NCBI RefSeq assembly: GCF_006402735.1
Contig: NZ_CP017174.1
Span: 9,140,001 to 9,204,000 of the forward strand
Reading direction: 5' to 3'
Origin: Myxococcus xanthus
GTDB lineage: Bacteria; Myxococcota; Myxococcia; Myxococcales; Myxococcaceae
DNA length: 64,000 bases
Shown here: positions 4,326 to 31,275 of the stretch, piece by piece
Layout of the letters: the number at the start of each line of letters is the position of its first letter
How positions within the stretch are numbered: position 1 is the first letter of the stretch
Position numbers and translations under genes: made by a program
The notes under the pieces: model-generated
Databases searched by the model: none
What the model saw: only the letters and a program-made list of their open reading frames with translations
What the model was told of the DNA's origin: nothing

Positions 4326-4457
4326 GGGCACATCATCGCCCGTTGGCCCGACGCGGGGAATGCCGCGCCCGACACGTTCATCGGGCTCGGGCCAACGTGG
4401 GGGATGCCAAGCCTGCCGCAGGACCGCCACGTTTGCGCATCGGGACTGGGCAATGAA

Positions 4458-4491
4458 CACAGGGGGGCGCCGTCTACAGCGCCCTCCTGTG
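4458..4491 (-). terminator. Strong hairpin, likely terminator
   Basis: A 13-bp stem (4458-4470 with 4479-4491, one G-U pair) encloses an 8-base loop. It lies about 70 bases downstream of the secreted-protein gene that ends at 4560 on the minus strand. A short T-containing stretch follows on that strand, but there is no long U-tract. Confidence 0.5.
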
Positions 4492-21022: not shown

Positions 21023-23547
21023 GAGGGGTGTGCCTTTCTCGCCAGCAGGCCGTTGAGGAGGTCACGCACGGAGGAGACCAGCTCCTCTTCAGAGGCGCGC
21101 GACTTGGTGAAGTGCCGGGTGATGCCCAGGGTGAGCTGCCGCTCATCCATGCGCGTCAAATCCCGGCCAGTGAAGACGATGAGCGGCGTGGCGCGGCCCT
21201 TGCCCTGACGGAGGATGTCGACGACCTCGAAGCCGTCCAGGCGCGGCAGGCCGACGTCCAGGACGATGAGGTCCGGTGTCGTCTCGCGCGCGAGCTCCAC
21301 CGCGCTCTCGCCGTCCGCCGCCTCGAAGACCTGCACGCCCAGCCGCTCCATCTGCGCGCACAGCGTGCGCCGGGTGCTGGCGTCGTCATCCACCACCAGC
21401 ACGCGCGCCTGGCCCGGCTGCCGAGTGGCGTAGCGCAGCGACTTGAGCAGCCGTGACTCCTCCAGCGGCCGGGGCATCCAGTCCACCCAGTGCGGAACGC
21501 CCTCCGCTTCGTCCGAGCGGCCGGACAACGCCAACACCGGCAGCTCGTGCGTGCGCGGCTGTTCGCGCAGGCGCCGCACCCAGTCCAGCGCGTGCCCTTC
21601 CGGAAGCTGCATGTCCACCACCAGCGCGTCCGGCAGGGACGTGTCCAGGTGCTTCGCCGCCTCGATGAGACTGGTGGCGCGCAGCACGCGGTAGCCTTCG
21701 TGCGCGAGGAGCCCGCCCAGCAGCGACGCCAATTCCGCGTCCGCGGTGGTCACCAGCACCTCATGGCGGGACGCGTCCTCGGGGATGACGGGCGGCGACG
21801 TGACGGACGCGGGCCGGGCCGACTCCAGCGTGAAGGTGAAGGTGGAGCCCCGGCCCTCCTCGCTCTCCACGGAGATGCGGCTGCCGTGCTGCTCCACGAT
21901 GGACTGGGAGATGGCCAGCCCCAGACCCGTGCCCCCCTTGGAGCGTGTATCCGAGCTGTCCAGCTGCTGGAAGCGGCCGAAGAGGCGCGCACGCTGCTCC
22001 TGGGAGATGCCGGGGCCCTGGTCCACCACACTGAAACGCACCCGCCCGTCCGCCTCTTCCCCCACGCGCACCGTCACCCCCGCGCCCTGCGGGGAGAACT
22101 TCACCGCGTTGGACACCAGGTTGGTGAGCACCTGCACCAGCCGGTCCCGGTCCGCCTTCACCTGTGGCGTGCCCGTCACCTCGGCGTGGAGCGATACACC
22201 CGCGCCGTCCGCCATGCCCCGGACGCCCGCGAAGGTGGACTCCACCAGGTCCGCGCATTCCGGCGTGGAGACCTTCAGCTCCAGCTTGCCCGCCTCCATC
22301 TTCTCCAGGTCGAGGATGTCGTTGATGAGCCGGATGAGGCGTTCGGTGTTGGTGCGGGCGATGCGCACCATGTCCAGCGCCTGGGGCGGAATATCGCCCA
22401 CGATGCCGCCCTCCAGCAGGCCCAGGGAGCCACGGATGGAGGTGAGTGGCGTGCGCAGCTCATGGCTGACGGTGGAGATGAACTCGTTCTTCATCCGCTC
22501 CACCGCCTTGCGCTCGGTGATGTCGCGAACGAAGACGGTGTAGCGAGGCGGGCCGTCTCCGGGCACGCGGACGATGGTCAGCTCCGCGGGGAAGGTGCTG
22601 CCATCCATGCGCAGGCACGGGGACTCCAGCCGCGTGGCCTGCCCCGACGCGGTGTTCCACCCCGCGGCCAGCACCTTCTGGCGGGCACCGTCCGGCAGCT
22701 CCTCCGGGAGCGCCACGGAGAGGAAGTTGCGGCCCACCACGTCTGCGGCGACCACCTGGAAGGTCTTCTGCGCCGAGGGGTTCAGCTCCAGCAAGTCCCC
22801 GCCGCCGTCCAGCAGGAGGATGCCGTCCGGAGAGGCCTCCAGAATCGCGGCCTTGCGTGCCTCGCTGGCGCGCAGCCCCTCGTTGGCGGCGGACAAGGCC
22901 TTGGTGCGTTCCTCTACCCGCCGCTCCAAATCCGTGTTGAGCGCGGCCAGGTCGGCGGTGGCCCGCGACAGCCGCACCATCACCACCAGCACGTAGGCCA
23001 CCAGCGCCAGCGAGACGATGAAGAAGATGATGCGCGAGCGCTCGTTGCGCTCCTGCGTGCGCTCGTAGAGCTCCAGGTAGGTGCTGATGAGGCGGTCCGC
23101 CCGCGTGCTGGCGGTGCCCTCCAACAGGGCCTGGACAGCCGCGTCCGCCTCTTCCTTCTCACCCCGCGCGTCCGCGGCGTGGGCTCGCTCCAGCAGCGCG
23201 GCGCTCTCCTCCAGCGCGCTGACGAACAGGTCCAGCGCCGCGTTCATCGTGCGCCGGTCCATGGCGGACAGGAAGGAGGGGAACTGCCGCAGCGCGTCCG
23301 CGCGAGCCCTCAGCGCGGCGAAGTCCTCCGGGTCCGAACCGTGGAGCGTGCGCAGGCCCATGCGTTCGCGCAGCACGTCCATCTCCAAATCGCCGCTGGC
23401 CACGCGCAGGTGCCGCAGCGCGCTGCGGTAGCGGTCATTGTCGGAGGTGGCCCACGGACGGCCCATGGCGAACAGGCCGCACAAGAGCAGCAGCGCGCCC
23501 GCCGCCAACACGCCCGAGCGGCGGGAGAGGCGAAGCCCCTGACTCAC
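21019..23547 (-). CDS. Hybrid sensor histidine kinase (2 TM, PAS, HisKA, two receivers)
   Basis: An 842-residue inner-membrane kinase. Two membrane helices (about 11-29 and 173-191) bracket a periplasmic helical sensor. A coiled coil (195-228), a PAS domain (228-342), HisKA with phospho-His near 362 in S-H-E-L-R-T-P-L, an ATPase domain with D-Q-G-P-G-I and G-T-G-L-G-L-A, and two C-terminal receivers follow. The first receiver lacks the N-terminal acid pair; the second has V-V-D-D-D and V-L-D-V-G-L-P. I set the start at a GTG that overlaps the stop of the CheY gene (GTGA). A longer upstream frame is only a shadow of that gene. Confidence 0.92.
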   Translation of the reverse strand: MSQGLRLSRRSGVLAAGALLLLCGLFAMGRPWATSDNDRYRSALRHLRVASGDLEMDVLRERMGLRTLHGSDPEDFAALRARADALRQFPSFLSAMDRRTMNAALDLFVSALEESAALLERAHAADARGEKEEADAAVQALLEGTASTRADRLISTYLELYERTQERNERSRIIFFIVSLALVAYVLVVMVRLSRATADLAALNTDLERRVEERTKALSAANEGLRASEARKAAILEASPDGILLLDGGGDLLELNPSAQKTFQVVAADVVGRNFLSVALPEELPDGARQKVLAAGWNTASGQATRLESPCLRMDGSTFPAELTIVRVPGDGPPRYTVFVRDITERKAVERMKNEFISTVSHELRTPLTSIRGSLGLLEGGIVGDIPPQALDMVRIARTNTERLIRLINDILDLEKMEAGKLELKVSTPECADLVESTFAGVRGMADGAGVSLHAEVTGTPQVKADRDRLVQVLTNLVSNAVKFSPQGAGVTVRVGEEADGRVRFSVVDQGPGISQEQRARLFGRFQQLDSSDTRSKGGTGLGLAISQSIVEQHGSRISVESEEGRGSTFTFTLESARPASVTSPPVIPEDASRHEVLVTTADAELASLLGGLLAHEGYRVLRATSLIEAAKHLDTSLPDALVVDMQLPEGHALDWVRRLREQPRTHELPVLALSGRSDEAEGVPHWVDWMPRPLEESRLLKSLRYATRQPGQARVLVVDDDASTRRTLCAQMERLGVQVFEAADGESAVELARETTPDLIVLDVGLPRLDGFEVVDILRQGKGRATPLIVFTGRDLTRMDERQLTLGITRHFTKSRASEEELVSSVRDLLNGLLARKAHPS

Positions 23548-27848: not shown

Positions 27849-28301
27849 CTAGCCCGTCGCCCGGCGCTTGCGCGCCGCACGCGCGGCGGGCTTCGCCGGG
27901 GTGGCGGGCGCCGGAACCACCGGCTGAGGCAACACGGTGACGACGGCGTTCACCACCCGGGACACCGCGCGGAGCTGACCGGGCTCGAGCTCCCGCAGCT
28001 TGCGCGTCATGCGGCGCAGCTCCACCGGGTCTTCCTTCACCGTCTTGCGAGGCGTGGCGGGCGCCCCGTCGGGACGGCCCACGCCCAGCAGCGTGTCCGC
28101 GGAGACCTGGAGCACGTCACACAGCCGGCGCAGCGTCTGGGTCCGGGGCAGCATCTTCCCGCGCTCCAGGCGGCTGTAGACCTCCATGGCCATGCCCATG
28201 CGTTCGGCGACGTCGCCCTGGGTGAGGCCCAGACGCAGGCGGGCGTCACGCGCGGCACCTCCCAGCACGGCTGCCAGCTTGTGGTCGACGGGCTCACGCA
28301 T
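27849..28301 (-). CDS. XRE-family transcriptional regulator
   Basis: A 150-residue protein. Residues 8-65 form a Cro/C1-type helix-turn-helix (L-G-L-T-Q-G-D-V-A-E-R-M-G-M-A-M-E-V-Y-S-R-L-E-R-G). The middle has L-R-R-M-T-R-K-L-R-E-L, probably a dimer helix, and the tail is Ala/Pro/Arg-rich. It is divergent from the Ser/Thr kinase gene. The shared 217-base promoter region has four copies of an A-C-C-T/A-G-G-T palindrome, which I infer to be its operator. The ATG at 28301 lacks a strong ribosome site, so an upstream GTG or TTG start is possible. Confidence 0.85.
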   Translation of the reverse strand: MREPVDHKLAAVLGGAARDARLRLGLTQGDVAERMGMAMEVYSRLERGKMLPRTQTLRRLCDVLQVSADTLLGVGRPDGAPATPRKTVKEDPVELRRMTRKLRELEPGQLRAVSRVVNAVVTVLPQPVVPAPATPAKPAARAARKRRATG

Positions 28302-28379: not shown

Positions 28380-28501
28380 ACCTCCCAAGTCAGGACACTA
28401 CCTCAAAGGGCAAACGTCATGCTATGGACCTCCAAGGTTGAATCATGACGCCACCCACAATGACAGCCGCTGGAACCACGTCTGAATTGGACCTCCAAGG
28501 T
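28380..28501. promoter_or_regulatory. Palindromic operator array between XRE and kinase genes
   Basis: ACCTCCAAGGT occurs at 28428-28438 and 28491-28501, each within a 14-base direct repeat TGGACCTCCAAGGT. Weaker copies lie at 28400-28410 (ACCTCAAAGGG) and 28380-28390 (ACCTCCCAAGT), the latter two spaced 20 bases apart. The half-sites ACCT and AGGT are inverted around a three-base centre. The copy at 28491 abuts the kinase ribosome site, so binding there should block expression. Confidence 0.6.
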
Positions 28502-28518
28502 CCTATGGGAGTCCATCC

Positions 28519-29691
28519 GTGATGCCGGGAGAGGACCTGCACCCGCTGATGCTCCAGGACTCAGAGGAGGTGGGGGCCTTCCGCATCGTCCGGCGGCTGG
28601 CCACCGGGGGCTTTGGCGCCATCTTCCTGGCCGAATCCGAGACGCACCGGCAGGTGGCGCTGAAGTTCGCGCTCCAGGGCCCCTCGGAGGAGGACTCGCC
28701 CGGGGCGGACGCGCGGACCTGGAAGGAGGTCCACGTCCTCATGCGACTGGAGCACCCCAACGTCGTGGAGCTGCTGGGCTACCGGCGGTGGCCGGATGCG
28801 CGCGATGGCTACCTGGTCCTCATCATGGGCTACGTGGAGGGCCCCACCCTGTCCGAGTGGGCCCTGTCCGCGCAGCCCACGCCCCGGCGCGCGGTGCAGG
28901 TGTTCCAGCAGCTGGCGCTCACGCTGGATGCCATCCACCGCGCGGGCGTGCTCCACCGAGACATCAAGGGCAACAACATCATCATCCGCGCGTCGGACGG
29001 ACAGCCGGTGCTGGTGGACTTCGGCTCGGGGGACCATGCGTGCTCGCCCGTGCTGACCGAGGACACCCTGCCGCCGGGCACGCCCAGCTATCGCAGCCCG
29101 GAGGCCCTGCGCTTCTGGGCCCAGCCTCGGCCGGCGGGCTCGCGTTATGCGTTCGCGCCCACGGATGATCTCTACTCGCTGGGGCTGGTGCTCTACGAGG
29201 TGCTCACCGGGAGCTTTCCCTATCCGGCGCAGCTGCCGCCCGCCGGGCTGCTGGCCAGCATCGAGTCCGGTGGCTTTCCCCCGCCCTCTGTCCGCAACCC
29301 GCGCGCCCCGAAGGCGCTGGACGCCATCGTGGCGCGCCTGCTGTCGCCCTCCGCGGCGGGGCGGCCTCCCTCGGGTGCGGCCCTGTTCGATGCGCTGGAC
29401 GCGGCGCTGGCGGGCGCGGACTCGGCCTGGGATGAGCACCTGTTTCCGCCCCTCGCTCCCGAGGAGGCCGTCACCGAGGAGGCGCTGGAGTTCTTCGACG
29501 GGGACGAGGAGGCGCGCGAGCTGCGCCGCTGGATGCGTGTCCCGGAGCGAGCGCGCCCGCCAGCCTCCTTCGCGCCTCCCACCGAGCCCACCTCACCCTG
29601 GGCCTTGACGGAGGTCCGCGCGAGCACCGGGTGGCGGCGGTGGCGGGACGCGCTGAAGCGGCTTCTGGCCACGCTGCGCTCGTGGCGCTGA
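28519..29691 (+). CDS. Eukaryote-like Ser/Thr protein kinase
   Basis: A 390-residue kinase with an intact catalytic set: Gly loop A-T-G-G-F-G near 29-33, Lys49 in V-A-L-K-F, the catalytic loop H-R-D-I-K-G-N-N with Asp148, D-F-G at 167-169, and P-G-T-P-S-Y-R-S-P-E. The domain spans about 20-285; the acidic tail ends in a basic R-W-R-R-W-R-D-A-L-K-R-L-L helix. There is no membrane helix. GTG at 28519 and ATG at 28522 are both possible starts; GGGAG fits the GTG better. It lies under the operator array shared with the XRE gene and is followed by a pseudokinase gene. Confidence 0.9.
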   Translation: MMPGEDLHPLMLQDSEEVGAFRIVRRLATGGFGAIFLAESETHRQVALKFALQGPSEEDSPGADARTWKEVHVLMRLEHPNVVELLGYRRWPDARDGYLVLIMGYVEGPTLSEWALSAQPTPRRAVQVFQQLALTLDAIHRAGVLHRDIKGNNIIIRASDGQPVLVDFGSGDHACSPVLTEDTLPPGTPSYRSPEALRFWAQPRPAGSRYAFAPTDDLYSLGLVLYEVLTGSFPYPAQLPPAGLLASIESGGFPPPSVRNPRAPKALDAIVARLLSPSAAGRPPSGAALFDALDAALAGADSAWDEHLFPPLAPEEAVTEEALEFFDGDEEARELRRWMRVPERARPPASFAPPTEPTSPWALTEVRASTGWRRWRDALKRLLATLRSWR

Positions 29692-29710
29692 GCCGGCGCG
29701 CCATTCCTTG

Positions 29711-29736
29711 GGAGGGGCCTGGGCGCCTGGCCCTCC
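29711..29736 (+). terminator. Bulged hairpin after Ser/Thr kinase gene
   Basis: GGAGGGGCC at 29711-29719 pairs with GGCCCTCC at 29729-29736 with one bulged G, followed by a T-rich stretch (TTCATTTTCATT) after about 13 bases. It may end or attenuate transcription before the pseudokinase gene. Confidence 0.35.
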
Positions 29737-29760
29737 GGGAAATCCATTCATTTTCATTCA

Positions 29761-29771
29761 ACCTCAGAGGT
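29761..29771. promoter_or_regulatory. Operator-like palindrome at pseudokinase start
   Basis: ACCTCAGAGGT, the same ACCT/AGGT palindrome as at 28428 and 28491, lies ten bases before the ATG of the second kinase-like gene and contains its only ribosome-site candidate (AGAGG). Control by the same XRE regulator is inferred. Confidence 0.5.
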
Positions 29772-29781
29772 CCATGAGCCC

Positions 29782-31275
29782 ATGATGACGCCTGACACGA
29801 CGACGGAGGAGCTTCCTGGAGGTCCGCGCAGACCACGCGTGCTGTTCACCGTGGCCGGCACGGTGTTCGAGTTCGTCCGCAAGCTGGAGATGCGCTCCAC
29901 GGGGGAACTGCTGATGCTGGCGCAGCGCCGCTACCGCAATGGCCTGAGCGGCCCGGTGGTGGTGAAGCGGCTGCGGAACCCCGCCACCTTCGTTGAGCGG
30001 CGACGGCTGGTGGAGGAGGTGGACCTCACGTTCCGGCTCAACCATCCCGCCATCGCCAAGGTGATGCTGCTGAAGCTCTACCGCGGCGCGCCTCACATCG
30101 TCATGGAGTACGTGGAAGGGCGTTCGCTGGACACGGTGTTGAACCTGGCGGCCATGCGGCGGCGGCCCCTGTCCGCGGAGTTCGCGGCGCACGTGACGGC
30201 GGAGGTGGCGGAGGCGCTGAGCCATGCGCACGGCCTCACGGATGAGTGGAGCCGGCCGCTGCACATCGTCCACCGGGACGTGAGCCCGCGGAACATCCGC
30301 GTGGGCGTCCATGGCGAGGTGAAGCTGACCAACTTCACGGTGGCGGCCTCGTCGCTCTCCGGGCGCGAGGTGACGAGCCGGGAGCTGGTGAAGGGTGACA
30401 TCGCCTACGCCTCGCCCGAGGCACTGCGGCGACGGAAGGTCGATGCCCGGTCGGACCTGTTCTCACTGGGACTGGTGCTGCTGGAGCTGCTGACGGGCCG
30501 GCACCCGTTGATGGTGGATGACCTGGCGCCCGTACTGGAGTCGGAGCCTCTGGAGCTTCACGCGCAAGGGCCCACGTGGATGCCCGTGAAGGAGGTGGCG
30601 GCGCGGATGGCCCAGGTGGGCCCGGAGCAGGTGGAGCGATTGGCGGCGGGTGTCGCCGAGCCTCTGCGGGCCATCCTGCTGCGGGCGCTGCGGCAGAATC
30701 CCTCGGAGCGGTTCCAGACGGGCGCGGAGATGGCGGAGGCGCTGCGTGCGTGGCTGGATGCGCAGGGAGGCCACCGGGGACGTCAGGCCATCGCGCAGGA
30801 GGTGGAGCAGGCCGCCGTGGAGGCGACGGTCCGGCGCAACCAGGCGGAGCTGCTCGAGGGCGGGCTGCATCCGGAAGGGCTGACGGTGGAGGAAGCGGCC
30901 CTGGCCGGAGAGCCCTCGTCCGAGACGCCCCTGGGCGAAGCCGCGGGGTCCGCGGTCCGATTGTCACAGGTGGCCGAGCTGACGCTGGAGGCGCGCATCA
31001 CCCAGACGGTGGAGCCAGCAGCGGACGCGCGGCACGCCGCCACGGAGGCTCCCGCGCTCGCGACACGGCTCGACGGCGCCCACACGGAGGCACGCTCGCA
31101 TCCGGGCCTCGAAGCGCCCACCACTCCGGTGGCGGAGACGGCGCCGCCTCCGCCCGCCCCCGAGGCACCGGACGAGGCACGTCCCGAGGCCTCCTCATCC
31201 CAGCCGCCTTCCCCACCGGAGCCCTCTGGCACGGCCCCAGAGGCCACGACGCCTGAGGAGCCCGACACACCGTGA
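29782..31275 (+). CDS. Ser/Thr kinase-like protein, probable pseudokinase
   Basis: A 497-residue protein with a kinase fold at about 25-330: Lys62 in V-V-V-K-R, H-R-D-V-S-P-R-N with Asp166, Y-A-S-P-E-A-L, and D-L-F-S-L-G-L-V-L-L-E-L-L-T-G. Two features are lost: the Gly-rich loop reads L-E-M-R-S-T-G-E, and the DFG motif reads N-F-T (Asn184 for the Mg-binding Asp). Catalysis is therefore doubtful. The last 150 residues are Ala/Glu/Pro-rich and disordered, with no membrane helix. A shared operator motif and position beside an intact kinase suggest an adaptor or allosteric partner role. Confidence 0.85.
   Translation: MMTPDTTTEELPGGPRRPRVLFTVAGTVFEFVRKLEMRSTGELLMLAQRRYRNGLSGPVVVKRLRNPATFVERRRLVEEVDLTFRLNHPAIAKVMLLKLYRGAPHIVMEYVEGRSLDTVLNLAAMRRRPLSAEFAAHVTAEVAEALSHAHGLTDEWSRPLHIVHRDVSPRNIRVGVHGEVKLTNFTVAASSLSGREVTSRELVKGDIAYASPEALRRRKVDARSDLFSLGLVLLELLTGRHPLMVDDLAPVLESEPLELHAQGPTWMPVKEVAARMAQVGPEQVERLAAGVAEPLRAILLRALRQNPSERFQTGAEMAEALRAWLDAQGGHRGRQAIAQEVEQAAVEATVRRNQAELLEGGLHPEGLTVEEAALAGEPSSETPLGEAAGSAVRLSQVAELTLEARITQTVEPAADARHAATEAPALATRLDGAHTEARSHPGLEAPTTPVAETAPPPPAPEAPDEARPEASSSQPPSPPEPSGTAPEATTPEEPDTP

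Follow-up and report, generated by a model that had tools for sequence, protein, structure and literature searches.

Candidate operators shared by an XRE regulator gene and a kinase-pseudokinase gene pair in Myxococcus xanthus

What controls a Ser/Thr kinase gene and the kinase-like gene that follows it, next to a gene for an XRE-family regulator, in Myxococcus xanthus, a predatory bacterium with 99 Ser/Thr protein kinases by published count (PMC6791715), few of them with known control? A preliminary description of the window, the 64,000-nucleotide stretch of M. xanthus DNA that carries these genes, proposed that one palindrome, ACCT-n3-AGGT, places all three under the XRE protein. Here, we compared the locus with its relatives, and from these sequence comparisons we consider it probable that an XRE-autoregulated operator cluster controls the kinase and the pseudokinase. 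The genes concerned are as follows.

27849..28301, minus strand: XRE-A, a 150-aa regulator (from translation; N-terminal Pfam HTH_3 match, 4.2e-13; recognition helix GMAMEVYSRLERG)
28522..29691, plus strand: Hanks-type Ser/Thr kinase 1, 389 aa (Pfam Pkinase, 1.1e-32; catalytic motifs intact)
29782..31275, plus strand: kinase 2, 497 aa, a predicted pseudokinase (Pfam Pkinase, 1.5e-26; NFT in place of DFG)

The HTH_3 match of XRE-A exceeds the curated Pfam cut-off, which places its domain in the XRE family, and its PDB matches are 434 repressor and ICEBs1 regulator sequences; a C-terminal extension brings the protein to its full length. The closest named relatives, from Myxococcus sp. CA023 and M. 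xanthus AM003, are 97% identical, and the recognition helix is conserved among orthologs. Neighboring genes encode a PAS-type histidine kinase and the two kinases. Kinase 1 has the motifs of an active kinase, with VALK (the catalytic Lys), HRD, and DFG all kept in 40 orthologs. Kinase 2 retains the lysine and HRD and lacks the DFG aspartate; because NFT or HFT replaces DFG in 24/24 orthologs sampled, it is by sequence a pseudokinase, the name that the preliminary description had given it. PADLOC models matched the kinases (PD-T4-6 and mad6) and the XRE (capH/HTH), matches that we read as generic kinase and HTH similarity, and a defense-system identity was rejected. A sigma-70 promoter and terminator scan of the locus returned no consensus promoter and no terminator.

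The palindromes and the elements beside them lie at the following positions.

28380..28390, no strand assigned: weak operator-like site ACCTCCCAAGT; CCTACC unchanged across 26 non-redundant genomes, with a less conserved right half
28400..28410, no strand assigned: weak operator-like site ACCTCAAAGGG; partner of the main operator, which lies 28 bp downstream
28420..28428, plus strand: TGnTA box TGCTATGGA, a possible extended -10 element; conserved in the alignment and abutting the main operator
28428..28438, no strand assigned: candidate main operator ACCTCCAAGGT, a perfect site
28491..28501, no strand assigned: candidate second operator ACCTCCAAGGT, 63 bp downstream of the main one (63 to 66 bp in relatives, degenerate in some)
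29761..29771, no strand assigned: candidate kinase 2 operator ACCTCAGAGGT, overlapping the Shine-Dalgarno-like AGAGG at 29766-29770

Two strong (28428 and 28491) and two weaker (28380 and 28400) copies between the divergent XRE and kinase genes, as well as a further copy over the ribosome site of the next kinase-like gene, had been described before, and all of these were found again; the last, at 29761, contains the AGAGG. Perfect ACCTnnnAGGT sites thus occur at 28428-28438, 28491-28501, and 29761-29771, and a fourth lies 5.6 kb off at 22754, so that the window holds 4 compared with 0.37 expected from shuffles. The TGnTA box next to the main operator may be an extended -10 element, in which case the operator would cover the start region and be placed at the transcription start, not inside a leader. 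Strict helical phasing of the 63-bp operator pair was ruled out, as relatives show 64 to 66 bp.

We compared 40 orthologous loci, drawn from three genera of one family, that of the window among them. Of the XRE-kinase gaps, 29/40 hold a perfect site (shuffles, 0.17), as do 18/34 gaps between kinase 1 and kinase 2 (shuffles, 0.05); with at most one mismatch, a site is present in 38/40 (shuffles, 3.0) and 34/34 (shuffles, 1.6), respectively, although kinship among the relatives means that these shuffle figures overstate significance. The difference between arms and spacer inside one site is unaffected by such kinship: among 26 non-redundant genomes, the arms of the main operator are 94% conserved and its three-base spacer is 56% conserved, against a mean of 66% for the whole region. 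Some relatives (L105, L106, L120, and L123 to L125) carry extra DNA that sets kinase 1 and kinase 2 about 1.4 to 2.8 kb apart, or XRE-A and XRE-B, the second XRE gene of most relatives, about 4.5 kb apart with another kinase-like match. BNCN01 contigs (L255, L277, and L289) titled Comamonas sp. KCTC 72670 bear the Myxococcus locus, and the title is probably wrong.

Spacing between sites was assessed by scoring the motif at each offset from the main operator in 38 kinase gaps. The best partner offset in the kinase 1 gaps is -28 bp, with a second pair at -48/-76, and the same -28 is best 5' of two other groups of XRE genes (P0004 and P0005, the L134 and L136 orthogroups), while -27 is best at the XRE promoter of a third (P0006, the L132 orthogroup). 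In the kinase 2 gap, -63 and -28 are the two best offsets, -28 being near best. A strict composite pattern of the pair, with one mismatch allowed, has just two matches in the genome, one at this locus and one at the L134 XRE promoter. A looser composite gives five matches at distinct places compared with one for its control, three of the five being the promoters used for its design. The fourth lies 5' of an XRE gene, probably xre228, where the match is degenerate and the promoter is too conserved among nine genomes to weigh much; the fifth, with about one expected by chance, lies between a Ser/Thr kinase gene and a divergent gene (L354, around 1501; 9077046 in its own genome). For three XRE paralogs, a site with at most one mismatch upstream of the regulator's own gene is kept in 26/27, 27/27, and 27/27 species; an XRE group with a different recognition helix has an upstream site in 2/14, which is chance level.

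Three paralogous modules in the window genome (L137, L138, and L139, at about 5.55, 8.64, and 5.37 Mb) each have kinase-2-like, XRE, and kinase-1-like genes adjoining, and in the promoter just 5' of the XRE gene they show no ACCTnnnAGGT, even with one mismatch allowed. Several relatives in the L132 orthogroup (L173 to L199) have a nearby kinase about 47 to 50% identical to kinase 1; within 10 kb around the L132 XRE of the window genome, no such kinase was found.

The control region of the pseudokinase gene has its own history. In the sampled gaps, a candidate operator precedes the kinase 2 start by about 20 to 24 bp. Most relatives carry a partner to it 63 bp farther upstream, and a conserved TTCGTGYTACCT-like block separates the two. 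Seven genomes of the window's clade have a shorter gap, from which the block is absent and in which a single operator now overlaps the Shine-Dalgarno sequence. The 29761 operator thus appears to be a remnant of the longer control region kept in most relatives, and it likely arose by deletion or recombination between two operators 63 bp apart; compared with two relatives, its left flank matches the upstream operator at 16 to 18 of 25 positions and the downstream one at 12 to 14 of 25. Because the gap has shortened and one operator is left over the ribosome site, kinase 2 in this lineage may depend on read-through from the kinase 1 promoter.

Which protein would bind these sites is suggested by distribution and by the recognition helix. 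Orthologs of XRE-A and kinase 1 occur in an identical set of 44/96 family genomes, with thresholds chosen to separate orthologs from paralogs and the lists compared by hand. XRE-B lies between XRE-A and the kinase and has nearly the same recognition helix; it has been lost in the window's clade, where the operators are kept. Several further XRE paralogs have a recognition helix nearly identical to that of XRE-A, so crosstalk is possible. The helix type alone fails to predict the site, because DdiA and Xre228 have a similar helix (EVYGRLERG) and the DdiA promoter has no ACCTnnnAGGT site in 9/9 genomes, while that of Xre228 has degenerate sites only. Taken on these comparisons, the binder is likely XRE-A, alone or with paralogs.

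We propose that XRE-A dimers, together with the second neighboring XRE in most relatives, would bind ACCT-n3-AGGT in the shared XRE/kinase control region, where the operators would act as tandem pairs 28 bp apart, with a further operator before the pseudokinase gene. The main operator would lie across the region where kinase transcription presumably starts, and its 28-bp partner across the presumed -35 region; because the pair overlaps both, the regulator would most likely, by default, repress the kinase, the pseudokinase, and its own gene. We infer the XRE as binder from the conserved sites, their recurrence at XRE genes of the same family, the shared XRE/kinase distribution, and DdiA, which has neither autoregulation nor the site; the sign of regulation and the promoter positions have the same standing, as would any feedback of the kinases on the XRE. 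The arrangement could plausibly serve as a self-contained switch, as had been suggested, and the earlier claim that the XRE controls the kinase pair gains strong support of a comparative kind from the conserved sites, the same pair at other XRE genes, and the co-occurrence in the same 44/96 genomes.

Published expression data bear on this locus. In M. xanthus, several clusters of Xre and Ser/Thr kinase genes are strongly upregulated both in tan phase variants and in a mutant of asgB (PMC3986340), including MXAN_7370 (+187 in tan variants and +293 in the asgB mutant) and MXAN_7371 (+99 and +116, respectively). The kinases studied here are probable orthologs of MXAN_7370/7371, an assignment based on gene order and distance from the chromosome end and not on sequence; L139 and L137 are probably MXAN_4371-4373 and 4479-4481, likewise by position and not by sequence. 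The genes listed as raised in tan cells do not include a neighboring Xre gene beside MXAN_7370/7371 (PMC3986340); if the assignment is correct, this speaks against a simple joint derepression. The preliminary description did not recognize the module as one already described; strong expression changes that very probably include this locus are in print (PMC3986340), and the claim holds only in part. A search of the main text of papers, few of them from subscription journals, found none describing operators of this XRE family.

Other explanations of the palindromes were weighed against this proposal. The plainest, that a common GC-rich palindrome recurs here by chance, draws on its genomic frequency, which the preliminary description had named as a possible refutation: a pattern search of the single-contig, 9.3-Mb genome gave 172 copies of ACCTnnnAGGT compared with 117 for the reversed control, and the flanked form RACCTnnnAGGTY is at background (33 compared with 32), so that the core is not rare and a lone copy carries little weight. 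Chance is almost untenable here, given that three copies fall within 1.35 kb and, in particular, that they are conserved; the arm-spacer contrast, the fixed spacing, and the recurrence at XRE genes also speak against it. With no excess of the flanked form, a genome-wide regulon of single sites was rejected as well. About half of the core copies elsewhere in the genome lie inside predicted ORFs, and GACCTGAGAGGTC occurs in the intergenic gap 5' of another Ser/Thr kinase gene (L327, 1501; 1036513 in its own genome). It is also very improbable that the palindrome works at the RNA level, as a hairpin in the kinase mRNA leaders that hides the kinase 2 ribosome site. GGACCTCCAAGGTCC is able to fold into a 6-bp stem, and the 29761 copy shares bases with the Shine-Dalgarno sequence, yet leader folding (z of 0.24 and -0.08) is no better than that of shuffles, the predicted structure leaves the 29761 palindrome unformed, arm changes number 121 broken, 36 wobble, and 5 compensated, and the TGnTA box points to a transcription start at the main operator.

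Two further alternatives concern the identity and the sign of the regulator. Another trans-acting regulator, such as AsgB or a paralogous XRE, might own the palindromes, with XRE-A merely a co-regulated neighbor. The 293- and 116-fold rises of the probable orthologs in the asgB mutant (PMC3986340) and the crosstalk that shared helices would allow speak for this; we regard it as rather unlikely, since the site goes with this XRE family, and the 44 genomes that have the kinase are the ones that have XRE-A. Moreover, the other asgB-raised clusters (4371-4373 and 4479-4481) lack such a site, and the L132 and L134 XRE genes have it yet are absent from the published table, with genes assigned by position only. 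It is unlikely, too, that XRE-A is chiefly an activator of the kinase promoter, working from the upstream member of the 28-bp pair, and becomes a repressor via the start-proximal site only when abundant, in the manner of the controller (C) proteins of restriction-modification systems. Sites at the presumed -35 and start regions do resemble C-protein OL/OR (PMC4041747, PMC4321490), and the listed data show the kinases up without a neighboring Xre gene (PMC3986340), but the strong conserved site here is start-proximal and the upstream one weak, the reverse of the C.Esp1396I OL/OR affinities, and the promoter positions on which the argument turns are themselves presumed. This alternative touches only the sign of regulation, and the weight that we give it lies within our confidence in the XRE-autoregulated operator cluster.

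That cluster provides a defined candidate operator and a likely regulator for one kinase-pseudokinase pair and offers a mechanism for some of the kinase/Xre genes that shift about 100-fold in M. xanthus phase variation, and its pairs at 28-bp spacing give a pattern by which the XRE family can be searched. A wider reading, which we hold possible though doubtful, is that fixed 28-bp ACCT-n3-AGGT pairs are a common promoter signature of a myxobacterial XRE family and that the locus is a cross-wired kinase-pseudokinase switch, in which paralogs with a common recognition helix recognize one another's operators and contribute to the choice between the yellow and tan phases.

Among known systems, the closest in setting are the M. 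xanthus STK/Xre clusters (MXAN_7370-7371, 4371-4373, and 4479-4481), in which kinase and Xre genes likewise adjoin and are strongly raised in tan variants; the main text of that study gives expression and gene context and names no operator (PMC3986340). DdiA (MXAN_0633), an XRE regulator of a LexA-independent DNA damage response whose gene we identified by its PomXYZ-like neighbors, is a paralog about 48% identical over the N-terminal part, with the similar recognition helix noted above. It differs in being published as not autoregulated (PMC12288472), in the absence of the upstream site, and in having no kinase partner described. The nearest parallel in mechanism is offered by the C-proteins (such as C.Esp1396I, C.AhdI, and C.Csp231I): they are small XRE-type dimers that bind palindromes of 4-n3-4 geometry (consensus GACTTATAGTC), and they have operators in tandem at their own promoter and one more at a second gene (PMC4321490, PMC4041747). 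In contrast, the genes studied here include no restriction-modification genes, the sites are ACCTnnnAGGT and not GACT/AGTC-type C-boxes, and the operators stand 28 bp apart, whereas about 4 bp is typical between C-protein sites and C.Csp231I has an 18-bp spacer; the targets are a kinase and a pseudokinase, and XRE-A, at 150 aa, carries a C-terminal extension. By this analogy, the locus appears to be built like a C-protein switch, yet stands apart from that family in its neighbors, its operator sequence, and its spacing.
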